A stretch of 64,000 nucleotides of DNA from Antarctobacter heliothermus (lineage in GTDB: Bacteria; Pseudomonadota; Alphaproteobacteria; Rhodobacterales; Rhodobacteraceae). The first letter of the stretch is position 1. Every line of letters starts with the position of its first letter. Of the stretch, positions 1,907 to 12,090 are shown in pieces. The DNA lies in assembly GCF_002237555.1 (NCBI RefSeq), contig NZ_CP022540.1, positions 3,787,001 to 3,851,000 of the forward strand, read 5' to 3'. The translations under genes and the position numbers were made by a program. A model generated the notes under the pieces. It was given only the letters and a program-made list of their open reading frames with translations. It searched no databases and was not told the DNA's origin.

Positions 1907-2356
1907 TCAGCCGCCCTGCCCGTCCATTCGATCCTTCAGAAACTGGCGAATGTCCAACAGTGATTTCTCATCCATCGAAACGTAGACCAGCTCCATGTTC
2001 ACCCGCTCGCGCACCATTTCACCCGGAAAAGGTAAATAGCTTAGTTCGCGCGACCCGAAGGACGGTGAGGCCGTGCCCACCTGCCACTCGGTCTTCAACT
2101 CCACATCCACCAGTTTCAGCGCCGTATCGCTGCCCGCGCCGGGCCGCTCGAACGGGACACCGGCCAGTCGCAGATACGACGCTTTGTCAGCGGCCTGCAC
2201 AAAGCCGTCGATGAACTGCGTCGCCAGCACCTGCAATTCCGCCGCTTGATCCTCGGGTTTGAGATGGCTGTGCAGGTGGTCGTGATCATGTGGGTGGTTG
2301 TGATCATGCGGGTGGTGATGGTGGCCGATATGGCCGTTCACGATGTCATGCGGCAT
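1907..2356 (-). CDS. His-rich protein, last gene of the guanidine operon
   Basis: A 149-residue protein whose first 31 residues include 14 histidines (alternating His with Asp, Pro and Asn). A charged body of about 110 residues follows that I cannot assign. I start it at the ATG at 2356 because a GGAGG lies nine bases upstream; an in-frame ATG at 2365 sits directly on that GGAGG. It overlaps the end of the CMD gene by 11 bases, so it is probably translationally coupled. His-rich tails are typical of nickel or zinc storage proteins and chaperones. With a GdmH-type hydrolase in the same operon, a nickel-delivery or storage role is an inference. No HypA or HypB gene is visible in the window. Confidence 0.8.
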
Positions 2357-2735
2357 CGGTTTCATCCTCCAGTTCAAAGACCTTAAGCGCAGTATTCAGC
2401 GCATTGATCGCGGCCGGCAGCCCGCCATACAGCGACATCTGCCAGATTGCCTCAGCGATTTCCTCACGGCTCAGCCCCGCCTTGCGCCCGCCTGTGATAT
2501 TTACCGCCAGTTGCGGCGCGGTTTGGCCGCCAAGGGCGGTCAGCGCCGCGATGGTGGCCAAATAGCGGTCGCGTAGCGGCAGGCCGGGGCGCGCGTATTG
2601 CTGGCCATAGGCGTAGTCGACCACGGTTTGCGCCATGCCCGGCAAGAGGTGGCCATAGCGCTGCGTCAACGCCTCCTCCATGCCGGGGTTCAACTGTTCG
2701 GACAGCTTGCGGCCGGTTTCCAATGTCTCTGACAC
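2346..2735 (-). CDS. Carboxymuconolactone decarboxylase (CMD) family protein
   Basis: A 129-residue protein with the CMD-fold pattern: [16 protein letters not shown], then PQLAVNIT, then [28 protein letters not shown]. It contains no cysteine at all, so it lacks the CxxC redox pair of AhpD-like members and is closer to the gamma-carboxymuconolactone decarboxylase type. It starts five bases after the stop of the ureohydrolase gene and overlaps the His-rich gene, so it belongs to the guanidine operon. Its part in guanidine use is not obvious. The family covers decarboxylases and small hydro-lyase-like enzymes, and the true reaction here is unknown. Confidence 0.85.
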
Positions 2736-2740
2736 GTCGT

Positions 2741-3880
2741 TTACCGTTTTGTCCGGCCGTGCCAGCGTTTGCCCTCGAATTCGCCATGCGGGATGGCGAC
2801 AGGCTTGTCGATATGACGAGTGTGCTTGCCCATATTGCCGCTGGCGACAAGGCTGCCCAGCACATCAACAATGACCCGCGTGCCCATCAGCGCGGTAATG
2901 TCTGACGTGTCATAGGGGGGCGACACCTCGACCAGTTCCATGCCGCAGATCCCCTCTGCCGCGACTTTGGACGCCAGCGCCAAGGCCTCACGCGGCAGGA
3001 AACCACCCGGTTCCGGCCAGCCGGTTCCGGGAACAAAACCACAGTCAATGCTGTCGATATCAAATGACATGTAGACCATGTCGACCCCGTCCCAGGCCAT
3101 TTCCAGCGCCATTTCTGCCGTCTTTTCGATGCCCATCTTTTCCATGTCGCCCATGGTGATGATGTTGGTCTCGCGGTCCCGCGCGACCTTGACCGCCTCA
3201 CGCGGCACCTGCCAGCCGCCGATGCCGACCTGCACAAGGTTCTTGGCGGGCACGTTCGGCAACAAGGTGGAATGGAACCACGGTGTCGTGTGCATCCGCT
3301 CATCCAGATCCTTTTCCTGAATGTCGGCGTGGCGGTCAAAATGGACGATGCCGATCTTTTTCGAAGTACATTCCGCGATACCGCGCACGCAGGGAAAGCC
3401 GATCGAATGGTCTCCTCCGATCATCACCGGCAAGGAGCCGCTGGAAAACACATGGCTGACGGCGCGGCTGATCTGGTCAAAGGATTTCTCAAGGTTCGCC
3501 GGGATGGTGAACACATCGCCCGCGTCACACAGGGTCATCTGCTCGCGCAGATCCACCCCCAGTTCATAGTTGTACGGCGTATACAGCGCGCTGATCTTGC
3601 GCAGCCCCTGCGGACCAAACCGCGTGCCGGGGCGATAGGTGGTGCCGCCGTCAAAGGGAATGCCAAGGATCGTGGCGTCGTAGTCGCCGACCTCTGTCAC
3701 ATCCTCTGCATAGGGCGCTTTGAGGAAGGTATTGATGCCCGCGAAATGCGGCAGTTCCCCGCGCGCAAATGTGGGGATCGACTTGTCCTCGATGCTGTCG
3801 GCCCCGGTCAGTCCCATGCGCAGCGCCCAACGGCGTTCTTCGTCCCATCGGCCTTCGGGCAGATCCGCCTCGGCCTTCAT
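2741..3880 (-). CDS. gdmH: Ureohydrolase, probable Ni-dependent guanidine hydrolase
   Basis: Predicted to hydrolyse guanidine to urea and ammonia. The 379-residue protein has the binuclear-metal motifs of the arginase/agmatinase fold: GGDHS (156-160), HFDRHAD (180-186, with Arg where agmatinases have Ala in DAHxD), SFDIDSID (272-279) and [10 protein letters not shown] (315-324). It is longer than typical agmatinases (about 305 residues), mainly through an N-terminal extension, as is known for cyanobacterial GdmH. It lies downstream of a guanidine-I riboswitch and an ABC importer, which argues for guanidine rather than agmatine. I chose the ATG at 3880 (AAGG and GGAAA upstream); the frame stays open to 4150, but that part overlaps the ATPase gene. 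Alternatives are agmatinase or guanidinobutyrase. Confidence 0.85.
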
Positions 3881-3971
3881 CGATTTCCAGCCTTGCAGTT
3901 TGGTCAGGTCCGGGTGGTGGGCACGGCGGTCCGTGCCGATCAGGTCGGCAGGATGGTGAGACCGGCGGCGG

Positions 3972-4742
3972 TCAGCGGGGGTGCAAAACATGGGTGCGCT
4001 CCTTGAGTGTCTGAAAGGGGATGCCATCATCGCGGGCATCGAAATCATAGGTGATCGTGGCGGCGTTCTTTTCTGGGTCGGTCGCGTCCCAGACCGGTTT
4101 GTCAAAGGCCCAGACGCGATCCCCCAGCTTGAACGCCTCGCCCAAATCATGGGTGATCATGAAAATGGTCATGCCGCTTTGATCCCGCAGTTCCTGCAGG
4201 AAATCGTGCATGACAATCTTGGTGCCCGGATCCAACGCGCCAAAAGGTTCGTCCAGCAACAGGATCTTGGGCTCACCAGCCAGCGCCTGCGCGATGGCCA
4301 GACGTTGCAGCATTCCGCCCGACAAATCGGCGGGGTATTGATCCGCCACATGCTCCAGCCCGATGCGGGCCAACGTGGCGCGGGCCTTGTCGCGTTCTTC
4401 GGCCCGGTCGGCGCGGCTCAACCGTCCCCAAAAGGACGACCGGAACGCGCGCGGCGCGATCAAGTTGTTCAGAACCGTTTGATGTGGCAGCACCGAATAG
4501 CGTTGAAACACAATGCCATGGTCGCGCCCCGGTTCGCGCGCCATGGGGGCGCCGTCGATGTGGATTTCACCGCGCGTGGGTTGCTCCTGCGCCAATAGCA
4601 GCCGCAGAAAGGTGGTCTTGCCACAGCCTGAGGCACCGACAATGGAGACAAACTGCCCCTTCGGCACACTGACATCGATGTTTTCAATGATGGTGCGTTT
4701 GCCATAGGTTTTGGACAGGCCCTTGATGGTGACGTAGCTCAT
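3972..4742 (-). CDS. ABC transporter ATPase, guanidine uptake
   Basis: A 256-residue ATPase of the nitrate/sulfonate/taurine (SsuB/TauB-like) class. Visible motifs are Walker A GASGCGKTT, Q-loop VFQRYSVLPH, signature LSGGMLQRLAIAQAL, Walker B ILLLDEPFGALD and switch His ITHD. The start ATG at 4742 overlaps the permease stop in an ATGA arrangement; the frame is open further upstream but inside the permease gene. A 91-base spacer separates it from the hydrolase gene. From the riboswitch and the hydrolase the likely cargo is guanidine. The C-terminal 45 residues after the ATPase core are charged and may be regulatory. Confidence 0.88.
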   Translation of the reverse strand: MSYVTIKGLSKTYGKRTIIENIDVSVPKGQFVSIVGASGCGKTTFLRLLLAQEQPTRGEIHIDGAPMAREPGRDHGIVFQRYSVLPHQTVLNNLIAPRAFRSSFWGRLSRADRAEERDKARATLARIGLEHVADQYPADLSGGMLQRLAIAQALAGEPKILLLDEPFGALDPGTKIVMHDFLQELRDQSGMTIFMITHDLGEAFKLGDRVWAFDKPVWDATDPEKNAATITYDFDARDDGIPFQTLKERTHVLHPR

Positions 4743-5551
4743 AGCGCCTCTCCATCCCAAGGGAACGCTCGCTTGGACAGCATCCGCAGCGCCAGATCCA
4801 GTAAGAAGGCCAGCAGGGTTATCCAGACGACGTAGGTCAGGATCACGTCCATCGCCAAATATCGCCGCACCAGAAAGATGCGGTAGCCCAGCCCCTGATC
4901 CGACGCGATGGCCTCTGCGGCAATCAGAAACAACCACGCGGGCCCCAGCGACAGCCGCACCGCGGCAATCAGGCGGGGCAGCACCTGCGGCAGGACCACA
5001 TGCAGCGCGATGGCAGTGGAACTCGCCCCCAGTGTCTGGGCCTTGACGAATTGTTCGCTGGGCAGGTCAATCACCCGCTGCGACATGTCGCGGATCAGGA
5101 AGGGGGTGATGCCAATGACAATCAGCGCCACCTTGGACACCTCACCCAGCCCCAGCAGGATAAACAGGACCGGCAGGATTGCCAGCGGCGGCACCATAGA
5201 GACCACCGACACAAATGGCGCAAAGCTCTTGCGCAGGTAGGGCAACATGCCGATGCCGATACCAGTTATCAGCGCCGTGGTTGCCGCGATCAGCACCCCC
5301 AATGCCAGACGACGCAGACTGGCGAACGTGTCGTTCCAGAACAGGATCTCTCCGGACCGGCGGTCAGCTTCGGTCAGCAGCCGTTCGGCGGTGGATAGGA
5401 TTGTCGTGGGCGCGGGCAACAGCTTGTCCTGCGGGTTCACCGCCAGCCGCATTTCCGATCCGATCATGTAGACGATCAGCACTGCGACAAAGGGCACGGC
5501 GGCCAACAGAATGGCCAAGGCCGGTCCCGGTTTTCGATTGATCCAGCGCAT
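4739..5551 (-). CDS. ABC transporter permease, guanidine uptake
   Basis: A 270-residue inner-membrane permease with about six hydrophobic segments, the first at residues 11-31 and the last at about 237-255. The cytoplasmic coupling loop reads VKAQTLGASSTAIALHVVLPQVLPRL, matching the EAA loop of nitrate/taurine-type permeases. It pairs with the ATPase (four-base overlap) and with the binding protein upstream. Inferred to form the channel of a riboswitch-controlled guanidine importer. The 95 bases between it and the binding-protein gene hold two hairpins that may lower its expression relative to the binding protein. Confidence 0.88.
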   Translation of the reverse strand: MRWINRKPGPALAILLAAVPFVAVLIVYMIGSEMRLAVNPQDKLLPAPTTILSTAERLLTEADRRSGEILFWNDTFASLRRLALGVLIAATTALITGIGIGMLPYLRKSFAPFVSVVSMVPPLAILPVLFILLGLGEVSKVALIVIGITPFLIRDMSQRVIDLPSEQFVKAQTLGASSTAIALHVVLPQVLPRLIAAVRLSLGPAWLFLIAAEAIASDQGLGYRIFLVRRYLAMDVILTYVVWITLLAFLLDLALRMLSKRAFPWDGEAL

Positions 5552-5572
5552 GGTGATCCTCGGCGGGCAGAG

Positions 5573-5639
5573 GCCCCGGATCAGGTCCGGGGCGCGGTTC
5601 GTCGTGGCAACAAGCGGCCCGCCTATATCAGCGGGCCGC
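5573..5639 (-). other. Two intercistronic hairpins between binding protein and permease genes
   Basis: Two perfect inverted repeats lie between the binding-protein stop and the permease start: an 8-bp stem at 5573-5580 / 5586-5593 and a 9-bp GC-rich stem at 5614-5622 / 5631-5639 with an 8-base loop. Neither is followed by a T run on the minus strand. They probably protect the upstream binding-protein mRNA or attenuate transcription, a common way to make more binding protein than membrane parts. This role is inferred from position. Confidence 0.6.
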
Positions 5640-5646
5640 GCAAGGC

Positions 5647-6705
5647 TTACAAAGCGCCGTCCGCCGCCATCTGCATGTAGGTGGTGTCAAAGCGGAACCT
5701 GACATTCGCCGGGTCGCCTGTAGTGCTGCCGTCCGGGTAGGACACGCCGACGAAATCAGCACTTGGCGCGCCCTCACCCAAGATTCCCTTGTCGAACAGG
5801 AATTCGGCCACGTTGACCATTGTCGTGGGCAGATCCGCCCCCATGGTGAATGCCACCGCGTCAGCCGGATCATAGAACATCTCTGTCGAATCCAACTGCG
5901 CCTTGTAGCCCGCCAGATCGGTGCCAGAGGCCTCTGCCATCGCAGTCAGGACCGCCTCGTCACCCGCAGCCATCAGGCCCATGACCTCGTACCACGCGCC
6001 GGCCATGGCTTTGCCGAAATCGGGGTTGGCGGCCAGCGTGTCGGTGTTCACCACCATCAGGTCGATGATCTCACCCGGGATGTCGGAACTGTCGAACAGC
6101 TTTTTAGCATTCGGCTCTTCGAGGATGGTGGAAACCAGCGGGTTCCAAGTCACCACCGCCTCTACGTCCGCAGTGGTAAATGCGGCGATCATGTCCGCGT
6201 CCGAGGTGTTCAGCACCCCGCCAAGGTCACGTTCCTGCAGGCCGACGCTGTCCAGCGCGCGCGCCAGCAGATAGTGCGAGACCGACAATTCCACCAGATT
6301 CACCGGCTTGCCCGCCAGATCCGCCAATTCACCATCGCCCTTGACGATCACCGCGTCATTGCCGTTGGAGAAGTCGCCGACGATCAGCGCCGTGGTGTCT
6401 ACCCCACCGCCAGCAGGGATCGACAGGGTGTCCATGTTGGTGGCCGACACGCCGTCAAAGGCACCAGCCGTGTATTGATTGATCGACTCGACATAATCGT
6501 TGATCTGCACGATCTCGACGGTGATGCCGTATTTCTCGGCCCATTTGTCCATGATCCCGGACTCGTCCAGATAGCCCCAAGGCATCCAGCCCACATAGAT
6601 GGACCAAGCGACACGAAAGTCGGTTTTGTCCTGAGCCGTGGCGGGTGTGGCCGCCGCCAGCGCAAGTGCCGCGCAGGTGGCCACAAATTGGCGTCTTGCA
6701 AACAT
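5647..6705 (-). CDS. ABC transporter substrate-binding protein, guanidine uptake
   Basis: A 352-residue periplasmic binding protein of the NMT1/SsuA-like class, with a signal peptide (FARRQFVATCAALALAAA, cleavage near ATAQ-DK). The mature part has the family pattern VGWMPWGYLDESGIMDKWAEKYG, then QYTAGAFDGVSATNMDTL and AFTTADVEAVVTWNP. I chose the ATG at 6705 because GAGGGGA lies just upstream and the signal peptide begins there; the open frame to 6753 is leader. It is the first gene after the guanidine-I riboswitch, so expression should rise with guanidine. The several Trp and acidic residues would suit a cation, but the ligand is inferred only from the operon. Confidence 0.88.
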   Translation of the reverse strand: MFARRQFVATCAALALAAATPATAQDKTDFRVAWSIYVGWMPWGYLDESGIMDKWAEKYGITVEIVQINDYVESINQYTAGAFDGVSATNMDTLSIPAGGGVDTTALIVGDFSNGNDAVIVKGDGELADLAGKPVNLVELSVSHYLLARALDSVGLQERDLGGVLNTSDADMIAAFTTADVEAVVTWNPLVSTILEEPNAKKLFDSSDIPGEIIDLMVVNTDTLAANPDFGKAMAGAWYEVMGLMAAGDEAVLTAMAEASGTDLAGYKAQLDSTEMFYDPADAVAFTMGADLPTTMVNVAEFLFDKGILGEGAPSADFVGVSYPDGSTTGDPANVRFRFDTTYMQMAADGAL

Positions 6706-6796
6706 GGGTGTCCCCTCATGCAACGTCCCGCCTTTGATTGCTGATCGAGGCACCGAGGCGGAACTTGAGAGATCGGTGAAACCTCAACGCGCAGTG

Positions 6797-6905
6797 CTCT
6801 CCCGGGATTTTGCCCCGCCGTGTCCCGGCAGGGAATTTGCCCCGTCGGTGGCATCTCTTGGACCAGTCCCTCCGGGAGGAGAAAAGAGGCGGAACCCTAG
6901 ATACC
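6797..6905 (-). promoter_or_regulatory. Guanidine-I riboswitch (ykkC class)
   Basis: Read on the minus strand, this leader contains the most conserved blocks of the ykkC/guanidine-I aptamer in the right order: CTAGGGTTCCG (from 6900), GACTGGTCC followed by AAGAGA, ACACGG (about 6823-6818), then a GGGGCAAAATCCC segment and CGGGAGAG ending near 6797. These match the known consensus apart from minor positions. Guanidine binding turns such genes on. The aptamer ends about 92 bases before the ATG of the binding-protein gene. I see no clear Rho-independent terminator with a T run after it, so the expression platform (translation or Rho) is unresolved. Confidence 0.93.
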
Positions 6906-7071
6906 CTGCTGTCTTCAGCATCGGGGATGGGGCTATGTTGTCACGCGGGTTGCATCAATCGCAGGCGGCGCAACTCGTCATCGCCCAAAAAACAGGCTAT
7001 TTTTTCGTCCAATGGTGCGAAATGTGGCAGCGGGCATTGCGCGCGACCTATGACCGGACAAAACTCAGGCC
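6906..7071. other. Divergent promoter region between riboswitch leader and MBL gene
   Basis: This stretch must hold the promoter for the riboswitch transcript (minus) and that of the MBL-fold gene (plus). On the minus strand TTGATG near 6960 with a TAGCCC-like -10 about 17 bases downstream is a weak candidate. There is an A/T-rich patch at about 6987-7007. I see no gene here. Confidence 0.35.
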
Positions 7072-7854
7072 ATGACATATCCCATCGCATCGCCGTGGTA
7101 CGGCACTCAGCAGATCGACGCCCGTATCTGGTGCCTGACGGAACCGCATGTGCACCCGATCTTTTCCGCCAACATCTTTCTGGTCTTGGGATCAGAGGCC
7201 GACATGGTCGTGGACAGCGGCATGGGCATCGCCCCGCTGCGGCCGGTCGTGGATGCGCTGCGCCCTGATCCGGCCAAACCACTGATCCTGGTCACCACCC
7301 ATTGCCACGTCGACCACATCGGTGCCGCGCATGAGTTCGACATCCGGCTTGTGCATCCGCTGGAGGCAGAAGACCTGGCACATCCCACCCCCTACAGCCT
7401 GGACACCGCTGGTATTTCAGACACGTTCCGCACACTTTTCCTAGACGCGGGCTATCCTCCGCTCTGGCCGCACCTGATGGATGCCCTGCCCCATGCAGGG
7501 TATGATCCCGCCGCCTACACGCTCAAGGGCGCGCCCGCGACCCGCACGGTCGAGGACGGTGATACCGTCGATCTGGGCGACTGGCAGGCAGAGGTTTTGC
7601 ATCTGCCCGGCCACTCGCCCGGACAGGTCGGGCTGTGGCATGGCAACAGCGGCACGCTGTTCGGCGCGGATGCGATCTATGATGGCCCGCTGATTTACGA
7701 CGGGCCGGGAATGGACGTTGCCGCCTATGCCGCAACGCTGCGCCGGATCCGGGCGTTGCCGGTCCAGCGTGTGCTGGGCGGCCATGATCCGGTATTTGGC
7801 CAAGACCGCTGTCACCAGATTGTGGATCACTACCTGACGCTCTGGCAGGCGTGA
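7072..7854 (+). CDS. MBL-fold metallo-hydrolase
   Basis: A 260-residue metallo-beta-lactamase fold protein. The metal-binding motif THCHVDHIG (HxHxDH) is at about residues 81-89. Further ligands sit in LPGHSPGQ (His near 180), GADAIYDGP (Asp near 200) and LGGHDPVF near the C-terminus. There is no signal peptide, so it is cytoplasmic. Members include glyoxalase II-like thioesterases, lactonases and other hydrolases; nothing here fixes the substrate. It diverges from the guanidine operon and converges on the unknown gene at 7867, with a small GC hairpin (7861-7876) between them. Confidence 0.85.
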   Translation: MTYPIASPWYGTQQIDARIWCLTEPHVHPIFSANIFLVLGSEADMVVDSGMGIAPLRPVVDALRPDPAKPLILVTTHCHVDHIGAAHEFDIRLVHPLEAEDLAHPTPYSLDTAGISDTFRTLFLDAGYPPLWPHLMDALPHAGYDPAAYTLKGAPATRTVEDGDTVDLGDWQAEVLHLPGHSPGQVGLWHGNSGTLFGADAIYDGPLIYDGPGMDVAAYAATLRRIRALPVQRVLGGHDPVFGQDRCHQIVDHYLTLWQA

Positions 7855-7866
7855 AACCGGCGCGGC

Positions 7867-8619
7867 TCAGGCCGCGTCGATCCGCACCTGCGCCGGTTGT
7901 GTCAAAGGCACTTCGCGGCTTTGTCCCAGAAAATCCACCGCGTGCCAGATCAGCGCGCCATCGCCCGTGCAACTGAGCACCGGCTGTCCTTCGAGCAGCG
8001 GGTTGGTGCACAATTCGGCCAGACCGCAAGCCCCGTCCCAGCGCCCGAAGGCAAAGACATGCCGCAACTGTTCCTGCAAGGCCCATGTCCGCTGCCCAGC
8101 CTCCAGCGCCGCGATGGTATTGCGCGAGTTCTCTGCATCAGGCTGCCCGACGCCAAACACGAACCGCTGGCCGATGGACACGATGAAGGCATGGGCAGAC
8201 CCCGCCATCAAGTGCATCGCGCTGGCCGGGTGATCCGCCCGCCGGTTCCACAGTTCGGCATAATCGCCATAGACCCCGGTCTCCATCATCTGGTCCGACC
8301 CGTTGAGTTCAAGCAGGCCGCTGTCCTCCGCCTCTGGTCGGCCGTGCCAATTGATCTCTCGGTGCCAGGTACAGACGTCGTCGCGCAGGGCCACAACACC
8401 GGCAAAGCCCTCGGCCCGCAACAGCGCCATCAGCGCAGCGTCAGGCAGGTCCGCCAACGCAGAGGCCCCGCGCACGTCTGGCCGATTGGGCGGAATGCGG
8501 ATGTCGGCGTAAAGCGATCCGCATTGCATCCAGTGCACGTTTGTCTCACAGTCATTGAATGACGGCGACTTGAGCCAGGCGCGATGCCAGTGTCCCTGAA
8601 TATCCCCGGATGTGATCAT
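7867..8619 (-). CDS. Conserved hypothetical protein, possible calycin-like fold
   Basis: A 250-residue soluble protein without signal peptide. I do not recognise its function. The start (GHWHRAWLKSP, then WMQCGSLYADIRIP) recalls the N-terminal strands of HRI1-like/calycin beta barrels, and a second half (HLMAGSAHAFIVSIGQRFVFGVGQP) looks like a repeat of that barrel pattern. It is the last gene of the ABC-transporter operon and overlaps the isochorismatase-family gene by four bases (ATGA), so it is probably made together with it. It may bind or modify the transported compound. Confidence 0.7.
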   Translation of the reverse strand: MITSGDIQGHWHRAWLKSPSFNDCETNVHWMQCGSLYADIRIPPNRPDVRGASALADLPDAALMALLRAEGFAGVVALRDDVCTWHREINWHGRPEAEDSGLLELNGSDQMMETGVYGDYAELWNRRADHPASAMHLMAGSAHAFIVSIGQRFVFGVGQPDAENSRNTIAALEAGQRTWALQEQLRHVFAFGRWDGACGLAELCTNPLLEGQPVLSCTGDGALIWHAVDFLGQSREVPLTQPAQVRIDAA

Positions 8620-9230
8620 TCTGCTGCCATTTGACGATTGCCCATCGCCCCGATGATCTCATCCGCGCTCAGCACGGCCCCTGCCTGAAGGTATTCCATA
8701 GCGTTCAACGACGCCTGATGCGCCTCGGGCGAGGTGCCTCCAACGCAATCCGCAACAACGCGACAATAATAATCGCTTTGGTGGCCGTCGGCGAAACTGT
8801 AGTGGACGCAAACATCCGTCATGCCGCCGACAAAGATCAGCGTTTCCGCTTTCAGGCCGCGCAGGAGGATCTCCATCTCGGTTCCGAAAAAGCAGGAATA
8901 GCGTCGCTTGGGCACATGATAGTCGCCAGGCTTGTACCCCATTTCTTCAAAGGCGACTGGTGTGCCTGGATCACCCTCCATGCAATGGATGTCCTCGGAG
9001 CCGTCCAGCTCTCGACCATAGTCAATCTGGTCACGGCGGTGGATTTCCTGAACGAAAACAACCGGAATGCCGTTGTCATGCGCGGCATCCACAACGGCGC
9101 GCGCGCGCATCATGTTCTCGGCATAGCCGGGCATATGCGGAATACCGCCTTCGGATTTCATGAAAGCGGATTTCTGGATGTCGATGACCATAAGAACGGT
9201 GTTGCCGACAAGAGTGGGTTGGCGGGCCAT
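8616..9230 (-). CDS. Isochorismatase-family cysteine hydrolase
   Basis: A 204-residue hydrolase with the full catalytic triad of the family: Asp17 (VIDIQ), Lys108 (VPKRRYSCFFGT) and Cys141 (GGMTDVCVHYSFADGHQ). The cis-peptide motif GGMTD before the Cys is typical. Relatives cleave amide or carbamoyl bonds in small molecules, for example ureidoacrylate/peroxyureidoacrylate (RutB), N-carbamoylsarcosine and nicotinamide. It follows the second permease gene by 12 bases in an ABC-importer operon, so it likely acts on the imported compound or a product of it. The exact amide is not predictable from the motifs alone. Confidence 0.88.
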   Translation of the reverse strand: MARQPTLVGNTVLMVIDIQKSAFMKSEGGIPHMPGYAENMMRARAVVDAAHDNGIPVVFVQEIHRRDQIDYGRELDGSEDIHCMEGDPGTPVAFEEMGYKPGDYHVPKRRYSCFFGTEMEILLRGLKAETLIFVGGMTDVCVHYSFADGHQSDYYCRVVADCVGGTSPEAHQASLNAMEYLQAGAVLSADEIIGAMGNRQMAAE

Positions 9231-9242
9231 TGTGCGCCTCCT

Positions 9243-10040
9243 TCAGGTGTTGGATTGGTCCGCGCCCATCAGGCGCGGCAGGTCGCCCCAGCGGGCAACG
9301 GCGGAAAAAACAAGGACCGACACGGCGATAAAGGTAATCGCCGCCACGGCCATTGTCGGCGTGTAGCCGTTTCTCAGAGAGTTGAAGATTTGCAGGGTCA
9401 CGGTGGCGTAGCCGGAGGCCGAGACAAAGAACATCACGATGAATTCGTTGAACGACAGCACCAGCACAAAGAAGAAGCCCGAGATCGTGTAGGGGATCGT
9501 CTGCGGCAGGATCACCGTGCGGAAGGTGACGGATTCAGTGGCGCCCATCGTCGCGGCGGCGTCCAGATGCGCGCGGTCGATGCTCTGCAACCCGATTGTG
9601 ATCGTCACCATCGGCAACGCCATCAGCAGCACCGCATGGCTGACCACCCCTGCCCAAAGCGCACCCAAACCGCCAAAAAAGCTCCAGAAAAAGCCAAGCC
9701 CGACGCCAAAAACGATGGGTGGCACCGCAAACGGCATCGACCCCAGCGCTGCCAGCGTGCGGGACAGTTTCGATCCCGTCGACCACAGCAGATAGGCCAA
9801 CGGCCAGGCCAGCATAACCGCAAGACTGGCCGCGCCGACCGCGACAATCACCGAATTGCCCAGCGCTTGCGTCCAGACGGGTTCAGAAACAAAGAACTCG
9901 CCAAAGCGCGCCAACGTCGGCTCGCGCGGGGGAAAGAACATGCTGCGCCCGCCGTTCAACGCAGCGCCGCAAACCACCGCGATGGGCAGCGCCAGCAGCA
10001 GTGCGCAAAACGCCATGTAAAGCGGTCCGACAATCCGCAT
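9243..10040 (-). CDS. ABC transporter permease (PotC-like)
   Basis: A 265-residue permease with six hydrophobic segments and the EAA-type loop DAAATMGATESVTFRTVILPQTIP near residue 180. The class is that of spermidine/putrescine (PotC) permeases. The ATG at 10040 shares one base with the stop of the first permease (TGATG). The frame stays open far upstream to 10646, but that part overlaps the partner gene in another frame. It is followed 12 bases later by the isochorismatase-family gene. Confidence 0.86.
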   Translation of the reverse strand: MRIVGPLYMAFCALLLALPIAVVCGAALNGGRSMFFPPREPTLARFGEFFVSEPVWTQALGNSVIVAVGAASLAVMLAWPLAYLLWSTGSKLSRTLAALGSMPFAVPPIVFGVGLGFFWSFFGGLGALWAGVVSHAVLLMALPMVTITIGLQSIDRAHLDAAATMGATESVTFRTVILPQTIPYTISGFFFVLVLSFNEFIVMFFVSASGYATVTLQIFNSLRNGYTPTMAVAAITFIAVSVLVFSAVARWGDLPRLMGADQSNT

Positions 10041-11017
10041 CAGCGCGCCTCCGCCCATGTGTTGATCCGGTGACCAAGCGCCAGACAGACCCCCGCCGAG
10101 ATCAGCAGGATCACCGCCTGCGCTGCCCCGAAGGGCGCGTTCAGGTTGGCCCCCCGGATGTTGGAATAGATCGCCACAGCGGTCGAATGCTGCGCAGGTG
10201 CGGCAAAGACCGTGACGGCAACGTAGGTGCCCAACAGGAACACAAACAGCAGCAATGTCGTGCCAAACAACGGTAGTCGGATCGCGGGCAGGATCACTGT
10301 GCGGGCCACGCACCAGCCGCCTGCCCCCATCGTGCGCGCCGCCTCGGACTGTGAGCGATCCAGGCGCGACAGCGCCGGAAACAAAAGGATCACCGCATAG
10401 GGCCAGACAAGGTAGCTCATGGTCAAGATGGTGGCGAATTGCGAGGTCTTGAACTTGACGTTGCGCGGGTTCGCCAGCCCCCAGTCGCGCAGCACCTGAA
10501 ACCAACCTGTGTCCTTCAGCCATTGGGTCAGCCCGGTGGATTTGAACAGCGCCGGCAAGCCAGAGTTGTTTGACAACAGGATGTCCCAGCCCATGACAAT
10601 GAACACCTCGGACAACGACAGCGACGACAGGATGAAGACCAGCCACGCCGCCTGCGTCCGGCGCGACAGTCGGGTCAGCAGCAACGTGAACGGCAGCGCC
10701 GTCAGCACCGCAAGCAAAGAGGCGATGACCGCGTACCAGAACGAAAACCCAAGTTGTTGCAGGTAAAGAAAGGTCACGTCGTCAGGCCAGAGCGTGCCGA
10801 CGAAAAACCGCTGGTAGTTTTCCAGGGTAAAGTCCCAGACCCAGGCGGCACCTTCGATCTTGCGACCAAAGCTGATCACGAAGACTAACAGGAACGGCAC
10901 AACGCATAGCGTCACGATCACCGCCGTCAGCGCCCAACTCAGTATGCGCACAACCGGGAATGGTCTGGCCGGGCGCGCCGTGTCAGGCCCCGTTTCGATA
11001 TGTTCGGCGACCGTCAT
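10040..11017 (-). CDS. ABC transporter permease (PotB-like)
   Basis: A 325-residue permease with a short hydrophilic N-terminus and about six to seven membrane segments. The coupling loop reads EAARTMGAGGWCVARTVILPAIRLPL. An insertion between the second and third core helices (about residues 130-180, SNNSGLPALFKSTGLTQW) faces the periplasm and is common in the PotB class. It overlaps the ATPase gene by four bases (ATGA) and the second permease by one. It forms a heterodimeric channel with the downstream permease. Confidence 0.86.
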   Translation of the reverse strand: MTVAEHIETGPDTARPARPFPVVRILSWALTAVIVTLCVVPFLLVFVISFGRKIEGAAWVWDFTLENYQRFFVGTLWPDDVTFLYLQQLGFSFWYAVIASLLAVLTALPFTLLLTRLSRRTQAAWLVFILSSLSLSEVFIVMGWDILLSNNSGLPALFKSTGLTQWLKDTGWFQVLRDWGLANPRNVKFKTSQFATILTMSYLVWPYAVILLFPALSRLDRSQSEAARTMGAGGWCVARTVILPAIRLPLFGTTLLLFVFLLGTYVAVTVFAAPAQHSTAVAIYSNIRGANLNAPFGAAQAVILLISAGVCLALGHRINTWAEAR

Positions 11018-12090
11018 TCGGCAGCCATGGCCAGCGCATCGTGGGCCGTTGGATCGGGGAAGATGTGCAAGGCATCGGGCGGCAGGCGGACCTCTGTCGT
11101 ATCGCCGACATGAAAGATCTTTCCGCCCTCACCTGCAGCGTATTCCACGACCATCCGGCCCACCGCAGTCTCGAGGTGGTATTCCCGTATCGGGCCAAGA
11201 TCGCGCACAAAGGTGATCTTGGCCGGCAATCGGTTTGCGCCCGGTTCCTCATCCAGACAGGCGCGTTCCGGTCGGATCGCCACGCGCACCGGGGAACCGC
11301 CAACAAAATGCGGATCAGCCACCAGATGTGTAGCACCGATGCGGATACCGCCCGGCTCTGTCACCCCGTCAAAAAAGTTCGCCTTGCCGATGAAATCCGC
11401 GACAAAGGCGTTTTCCGGCTTGTGATAGATGTCTTGCGGCGGGCCCACCTGTTCCACCCGCCCGTTGGACATGACGACGATGCTATCGGCCATAGTCATG
11501 GCCTCGCGTTGATCATGGGTGACGACGATGGTGGTGATGCCCAGCCGCTGTTGCAGTAGCCGCAGTTCCACCTGCATCTCTTCGCGCAACTTGGCGTCCA
11601 GCGCCGACATCGGTTCGTCCAGCAGGAAAACCTCTGGTTCCTGCGCCAGCGCGCGGGCAATCGCGACGCGCTGGCGCTGCCCGCCCGACAGCTGGCCAAT
11701 CCGGCGGTCGCCAAAGGCCGACAGTTGCACCAGATCCAGCAACTTGCCTGCCCGATCCGCCGCCTCTGACCGAGAAACGCCGGAGATGTGCAGCGAATAG
11801 GCTACGTTGTCTCGCACCGTCAGATGCGGGAACAGCGCAAAACTCTGGAACACCATGCCGAACTTGCGCCGGTGCGCGGGCAGATCCGTGATGTTACGAT
11901 CCCCCAGCAGGATCACCCCGCCTGAGGGCGCCTCCAATCCCGCCACCATGCGCAAAAGGGTCGTCTTGCCACAACCTGACGGCCCCAACAGCGCCGTCAG
12001 TTGCCCTTCTCCGAATGTCAGGTTCACCAGATCAACGGCACGGGTGCCGCCGAAGGTCTTGGAGATGCTCTTGAGGACAAGACCGGACAT
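11014..12090 (-). CDS. ABC transporter ATPase (PotA-like)
   Basis: A 358-residue ATPase of the spermidine/putrescine/Fe/maltose (CUT1/PotA) type. Motifs are Walker A GPSGCGKTT (about 36-44), Q-loop VFQSFALFPH, signature LSGGQRQRVAIARAL, Walker B VFLLDEPMSALD and switch VTHDQREAM. The C-terminal 120 residues form the TOBE regulatory domain (VRVAIRPERACL). It lies six bases after the binding-protein stop. The cargo is unknown; the neighbouring deaminase, oxygenase and amidase would fit a nucleobase or an amide/amine compound. Confidence 0.88.
   Translation of the reverse strand: MSGLVLKSISKTFGGTRAVDLVNLTFGEGQLTALLGPSGCGKTTLLRMVAGLEAPSGGVILLGDRNITDLPAHRRKFGMVFQSFALFPHLTVRDNVAYSLHISGVSRSEAADRAGKLLDLVQLSAFGDRRIGQLSGGQRQRVAIARALAQEPEVFLLDEPMSALDAKLREEMQVELRLLQQRLGITTIVVTHDQREAMTMADSIVVMSNGRVEQVGPPQDIYHKPENAFVADFIGKANFFDGVTEPGGIRIGATHLVADPHFVGGSPVRVAIRPERACLDEEPGANRLPAKITFVRDLGPIREYHLETAVGRMVVEYAAGEGGKIFHVGDTTEVRLPPDALHIFPDPTAHDALAMAAE

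Follow-up and report, generated by a model that had tools for sequence, protein, structure and literature searches.

A guanidine-I riboswitch operon of Antarctobacter heliothermus with a predicted guanidinase and a candidate histidine-rich nickel-delivery partner

Gene content of the operon and its leader

The DNA analysed here is a window of 64,000 nucleotides (nt) from Antarctobacter heliothermus (contig NZ_CP022540.1, positions 3,787,001 to 3,851,000). It contains an operon on the minus strand, in which a guanidine-I riboswitch is followed by the genes for the substrate-binding protein (SBP), permease and ATPase of an ATP-binding cassette (ABC) importer, a ureohydrolase, a CMD-family protein and a histidine-rich (His-rich) protein (Table 1); all reading frames were checked. 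A first-pass annotation had proposed a riboswitch-controlled operon at 1907–6905 of the window. The operon content stands, and the interval misses 6 nt at the start of the aptamer.

Table 1 Features of the guanidine operon (window coordinates)
Feature	Position	Strand	Support
Guanidine-I riboswitch aptamer (RF00442)	6797..6911	-	cmscan 74.8 bits (gathering score 63)
ABC importer substrate-binding protein, 352 aa	5647..6705	-	TIGR03427 529.7 bits (cutoff 333.9)
ABC importer permease, 270 aa	4739..5551	-	PF00528 71.7 bits
ABC importer ATPase, 256 aa	3972..4742	-	PF00005 116.6 bits
Predicted GdmH-type guanidinase, 416 aa	2741..3991	-	PF00491 254.6 bits; about 100 residues precede the arginase domain
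CMD-family (PF02627) protein, 129 aa, GTG start	2346..2735	-	PF02627 55.9 bits
His-rich guanidinase-linked protein, 149 aa (aa, amino acids)	1907..2356	-	His-rich tail, HLHSH motif, conserved folded domain

The guanidine-I leader suspected from the letters alone is confirmed by the covariance test. The RF00442 model aligns over its full length (1–107, E = 3.4e-12; cmscan) at a score above gathering, and the aptamer is the sole Rfam match at gathering score in the window as well as the sole RF00442 match in the 5.3-Mb genome. It precedes the start of the SBP gene on the shared strand, which places it as the leader of guanidine-related genes. Folding of this leader gives a strong hairpin 3' of the aptamer, with no T run. 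Riboswitches of the guanidine-I class are described as permitting transcription only with guanidine present (PMC11410670), and the element would turn the operon on under this condition.

The leader is widespread among related loci, taken here as the 80 top-ranking loci among the 564 that matched an alphaproteobacterial guanidinase query. This selection favours relatives, unlike two even draws of genomes, 385 from the class and 398 from the phylum, which have G000 and G107 in common and together yield 16 distinct guanidinase genomes. Our own guanidine-I model, trained on 18 of the same 80 loci that it scanned, finds the motif upstream in 73 of the 80; at L072 the motif is clipped by the start of the locus. 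Outside the training set of this model, the RF00442 model of Rfam passes in eight of eight related loci, and the leader of Sinorhizobium fredii NGR234 reaches 82.9 bits. Riboswitch-controlled guanidine operons thus occur in many Rhodobacterales.

The ABC importer composed of SBP, permease and ATPase would take up guanidine. Its SBP belongs to TIGR03427, a family named 'putative urea ABC transporter substrate-binding protein', and its cargo is probably guanidine rather than urea. Since this TIGR03427 member is preceded by a guanidine riboswitch and encoded in one operon with a guanidinase, the family name may need revision. In a related locus from Mameliella alba (L019), about 2 kb of extra genes (5800–7980) are inserted between the ATPase and guanidinase genes; judged from translation alone, they encode an RNA-ligase-like protein and an HD-domain protein.

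Assignment of the ureohydrolase

The ureohydrolase gene is preceded by AAGGAG, and its product has the N-terminal extension and the DRHxD motif described in the first-pass annotation, with the arginase domain starting at about residue 100 and the motif reading DRHAD. The metal ligand positions (GGDH, DxHxD and DxD) are conserved. Among the solved chains, the best matches are GdmH from Synechocystis (7esr/7oi1, 546 bits) and the guanidinase of the comammox organism Nitrospira inopinata (9fek, 540 bits). The aligned identity is 65.1% to 7esr and 63.8% to 9fek. The third-best chain is a guanidinobutyrase at 171 bits, and the identity to guanidinobutyrase, guanidinopropionase and proclavaminate amidinohydrolase is 32.6–34.6%. 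Guanidine specificity of the Synechocystis enzyme depends on T97 and W305 (PMC11410670), and the equivalents of T97, H214, W305 and E336 are all found in the window enzyme. The other aligned ureohydrolases carry T at position 305, as do the relatives L120 and L135.

In a maximum-likelihood tree of 49 rows, with characterised agmatinases not among them, the window enzyme lies within an alphaproteobacterial clade of 34 rows (support 100/99). Next to this clade, in a weakly supported order (87/57, 88/50), come GdmH and the N. inopinata enzyme, and a long branch (100/97) separates the other ureohydrolases, including four from the same genome. The tree placement proposed earlier as a test therefore groups the enzyme with the two characterised guanidinases, not with other ureohydrolases. 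Judged from its sequence, the hydrolase is GdmH-like, and it would convert guanidine to urea and ammonia.

This assignment departs from public records of Rhodobacterales, which label the guanidinase as agmatinase and assign the importer to urea. Named database entries say agmatinase or agmatinase family, and two agmatinase models do match the window enzyme, both below cutoff (TIGR01230, 167.8 against 174.3 bits; NF002564, 202.8 against 302 bits). Chains named agmatinase score no more than 131 bits (the best 130.5), except for the two characterised guanidinases, 7esr/7oi1 and 9fek, which are still labelled agmatinase 2 in the structure file. We accordingly regard the public annotation as agmatinase as almost certainly wrong for this enzyme. 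Another small guanidino compound, such as methylguanidine or guanidinobutyrate, might instead be handled by the hydrolase and importer, with guanidine acting mainly as the signal. The name of TIGR03427, which carries urea and not guanidine, would agree with this, as would the hydrolysis of metformin or dimethylguanidine by related ureohydrolases (PMC11399263). However, both guanidine-specificity residues are kept and the identity to guanidinases is 64–65%, against 33–35% to other ureohydrolases, which makes a different substrate improbable.

The urea formed from guanidine would be hydrolysed to ammonia by urease, which is encoded elsewhere on the same contig, about 1.24 Mb from the operon if the contig is circular. 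In this cluster ureD, ureB, ureC, ureE, ureF and a UreG-type gene were recognised; ureA was not recognised among the frames scanned. Urease alpha was also matched in all 16 genomes with a close guanidinase. The guanidine-to-urea route predicted earlier is backed at the level of genes by the riboswitch, the importer and the guanidinase-type enzyme, and because urease genes are present, the route from guanidine through urea to ammonia appears complete on paper.

The His-rich family and its nickel context

The His-rich protein belongs to a guanidinase-linked, unnamed family and is the most interesting part of the system. Its AlphaFold 2 model has a mean predicted local distance difference test (pLDDT) score of 78.8, with ten-residue block means of 81–97 over residues 41–140. 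The N-terminal part holds at least 8 His in 71 of 79 members (median 16). A Pfam scan of 39 members gave nothing better than E 0.073, neither Pfam nor NCBIfam yielded a convincing family, and no convincing structural relative of the protein was found. A search of the open-licence literature turned up no report of such a protein accompanying guanidinase. A folded domain combined with a His-rich stretch, in a protein encoded with a nickel enzyme, is also seen in UreE, HypB and other His-rich nickel proteins. The present family differs from them in that it matches none of the UreE, HypA and G3E GTPase models.

The His-rich gene is linked to the guanidinase gene. A His-rich homologue is the next gene 3' of the guanidinase gene in 79 of the 80 related loci; the exception is L094, where the contig ends inside the guanidinase gene. 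The two genes overlap by exactly 11 nt in 37 of the 79 and by any length in 50, and the spacing in 73 ranges from an overlap of 20 nt to a gap of 30 nt. The even draws give the same picture. All 11 genomes of the class draw with a guanidinase at least 75% identical carry the His-rich gene, adjacent to it, as do 7 of 7 in the phylum draw, amounting to 16 of 16 distinct genomes (Fisher p 1e-19 for the class and 3e-14 for the phylum, uncorrected, both made too small by kinship).

The His-rich gene occurs without a guanidinase in three genomes, two of the class draw (G125 and G365) and one of the phylum draw (G594), only as fragments. In G125 the fragment comprises residues 60–146. In G365 (L129, 9018–9933) the riboswitch is followed by an SBP gene cut at about residue 142 and then directly by His-rich residues 50–139, an arrangement that reflects either an internal deletion or an assembly fault. 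A 27-residue piece in G594 (L186, 4772–4852) adjoins apparent urea ABC importer genes, as if the guanidine operon had been lost there. In addition, a 76-aa membrane-like protein, which the HupE search did not pick up, is encoded directly 3' of the His-rich gene in G335 (L144, 8998–9228).

The operon was noted at first pass to be without HypA and HypB, and the genome agrees: neither is present in the operon, and HypA (PF01155) has no match in the whole genome. Five matches to PF02492 (CobW/HypB/UreG) were found in the genome. One is the UreG-type gene of the urease cluster, three are in frames of 388–410 aa, a CobW-like length, and one scores 22 bits; their length and place suggest that none of the five is HypB. 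Of the 16 genomes that carry a close guanidinase, 5 match HypA. A phmmer search of 105 loci (the 80 related loci and L127–L151) with two HypA, a HypB-like GTPase, a UreG and three CobW-like queries gave no HypA match in those loci; UreG matched in L133, L143 and L146, and one match in L086 is the frame of the His-rich gene itself.

In the Sll1077/GdmH operon of Synechocystis, a guanidine-I riboswitch and the guanidinase gene are found with hypA, hypB and an ABC importer (PMC8390497, PMC12186494). GdmH is reported to be Ni-dependent and to require for activity the accessory nickel-delivery proteins encoded alongside it (PMC12186494), in line with reports that nickel chaperones activate the cyanobacterial guanidinase (PMC11399263, PMC12186494). 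The window and Synechocystis agree in the class of riboswitch, the type of importer and the family of the enzyme (65% identity), whereas the window lacks HypA/HypB and contains the unnamed His-rich protein in the accessory place, plus the CMD gene. The lack of HypA/HypB is not peculiar to the window. N. inopinata (9fek) shares with it the guanidine-I riboswitch, the enzyme family (64%) and, reportedly, the lack of nearby nickel chaperones, but has a permease of the APC type in place of the ABC importer (PMC11410670). The N. inopinata guanidinase held one nickel and one manganese, and no chaperones were found for it, so its nickel loading is called unclear (PMC11410670).

The metformin/dimethylguanidine hydrolase operons of Aminobacter and Pseudomonas resemble the proposed arrangement in combining a Ni-dependent ureohydrolase with nickel accessories (PMC11399263). 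Their hydrolase differs in being heteromeric and distant (134 bits), and HypA and HypB serve as its accessories. Around the metformin hydrolase genes, hypA and hypB stand at one end and hupE at the other (PMC11399263), and hupE lies downstream as in S. fredii NGR234 (L136) and G532 (L139), where the guanidinase gene, the His-rich gene and a HupE/UreJ permease gene (PF04955, 153.3 and 169.3 bits, respectively) follow in order. As the His-rich gene stands beside a nickel permease gene in these two genomes, it takes the accessory place. HupE was found in 2 of 98 loci scanned, and its adjacency supports a nickel role without being a rule. In G096, UreG and, judged by eye, an apparent UreF are encoded directly upstream of the operon.

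Taken together, genomic context and His composition indicate that the His-rich protein probably delivers nickel to, or stores it for, the guanidinases of Alphaproteobacteria. As a dedicated metal partner, it would bind nickel through its flexible His tail and the HLHSH motif, while its conserved C-terminal domain would dock on the guanidinase or an assembly intermediate, and it would thereby stand in for the HypA/HypB-like proteins that serve GdmH in Synechocystis. We consider the whole proposal, a guanidine operon equipped with a His-rich nickel-delivery partner, to be fairly likely. The His-rich gene is hence a single-gene candidate for nickel loading of guanidinase in Alphaproteobacteria. 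A further-reaching claim, that the protein represents a new class of metallochaperone, unrelated to HypA, HypB and UreE, dedicated to guanidinase and replacing HypA/HypB across the clade (roseobacters, SAR116 and Sinorhizobium fredii), seems to us evenly balanced.

Alternatively, the operon would serve guanidine use as proposed, while the His-rich protein would store nickel or form a structural or regulatory part of the enzyme, and nickel would reach the enzyme through urease accessories or from the cytosol. Such a role would agree with the retention of the C-terminal domain in L147 and L142, which have almost no His tail, with the urease accessory genes encoded in the genome, and with guanidinases that have no chaperone gene beside them, in Rubrobacter indicoceani and, reportedly, N. 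inopinata (PMC11410670). The adjacent nickel permease gene in two loci and the His-rich tails in most members, however, fit nickel handling for the guanidinase, and we view this alternative as possible although rather unlikely.

Several observations weigh against a guanidine operon with a His-rich nickel-delivery partner. Our own model finds no riboswitch in 7 of the 80 related loci (L075, L085, L086, L087, L091, L092 and L093), and the Rfam model, tried on all of them except L093, is negative in the same six. No ABC importer was found in L075 and L091–L093 at the listing threshold, and a 433-nt spacer separates the guanidinase and His-rich genes in L049. Moreover, no His-rich gene is present in the stretches of guanidinase relatives outside the 34-row clade, namely G064, G079, R. 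indicoceani, R. radiotolerans, Nonomuraea and Embleya; outside Pseudomonadota, only plasmid-collection records were covered. The G064 and G079 enzymes, from the class draw, are 57–59% identical over the matched part, and the G064 contig ends inside the guanidinase-like gene. Position 305 is T in G079 and Embleya. Both the T and the W are kept in R. radiotolerans and Nonomuraea, which give no riboswitch match, and R. indicoceani combines the T and the W with the riboswitch. The His-rich family is confined, as far as seen, to one guanidinase clade.

The CMD gene, flanking genes and other loci

In the window, the CMD gene separates the guanidinase and His-rich genes and overlaps the latter by 11 nt (2346–2356). 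A CMD homologue is found in none of the 80 related loci, ruling out the CMD gene as a conserved component of the system and marking it as a local insertion. Of the 'different accessory set' put forward at first pass, the His-rich protein therefore stands, as the single conserved accessory, and the CMD protein does not. A function as 4-carboxymuconolactone decarboxylase (PcaC) was rejected as well: TIGR02425 gives 52.8 bits against a cutoff of 155.7, and only the broad PF02627 is matched. Homologues 72–79% identical occur in G154, G565 and G594, all without a guanidinase at the search threshold. Judging from the sequence starts of its neighbours, the one in G154 lies between a LysR-like gene and apparent urea ABC importer genes. 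A second PF02627 gene is located between ureB and ureC of the urease cluster (L152, 8042–8434; G000:C1, about 304.0–304.4 kb), and its product has no BLASTP similarity to the operon CMD protein.

Beside the operon (7072–9230) are an MBL-fold gene on the plus strand and, on the minus strand, a gene for a 250-aa protein of no known function and an isochorismatase-like gene. The same set adjoins the operon in 6 of the 80 related loci, upstream in L019, L020 and L034 and downstream in L059, L068 and L083, and these genes may be connected with guanidine or with urea-like compounds. Beyond the isochorismatase-like gene (9243–12090) lie ABC importer genes, with sub-cutoff matches to a PotA/PhnT-like ATPase and a PotC-like permease.

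On a plasmid of R. indicoceani (L133), a riboswitch (RF00442, 75.7 bits), a guanidinase gene, a sodium:solute symporter gene, a formamidase gene and urease genes are found together, and this stretch has neither an ABC importer annotation nor a His-rich gene. It also contains a match to the antisense 5'ureB small RNA (sRNA; RF02514, 92.3 bits). A match to the Ruegeria cis8 sRNA (RF02646, 92.7 bits) lies downstream of a related guanidine operon at 11172–11300 of L073.

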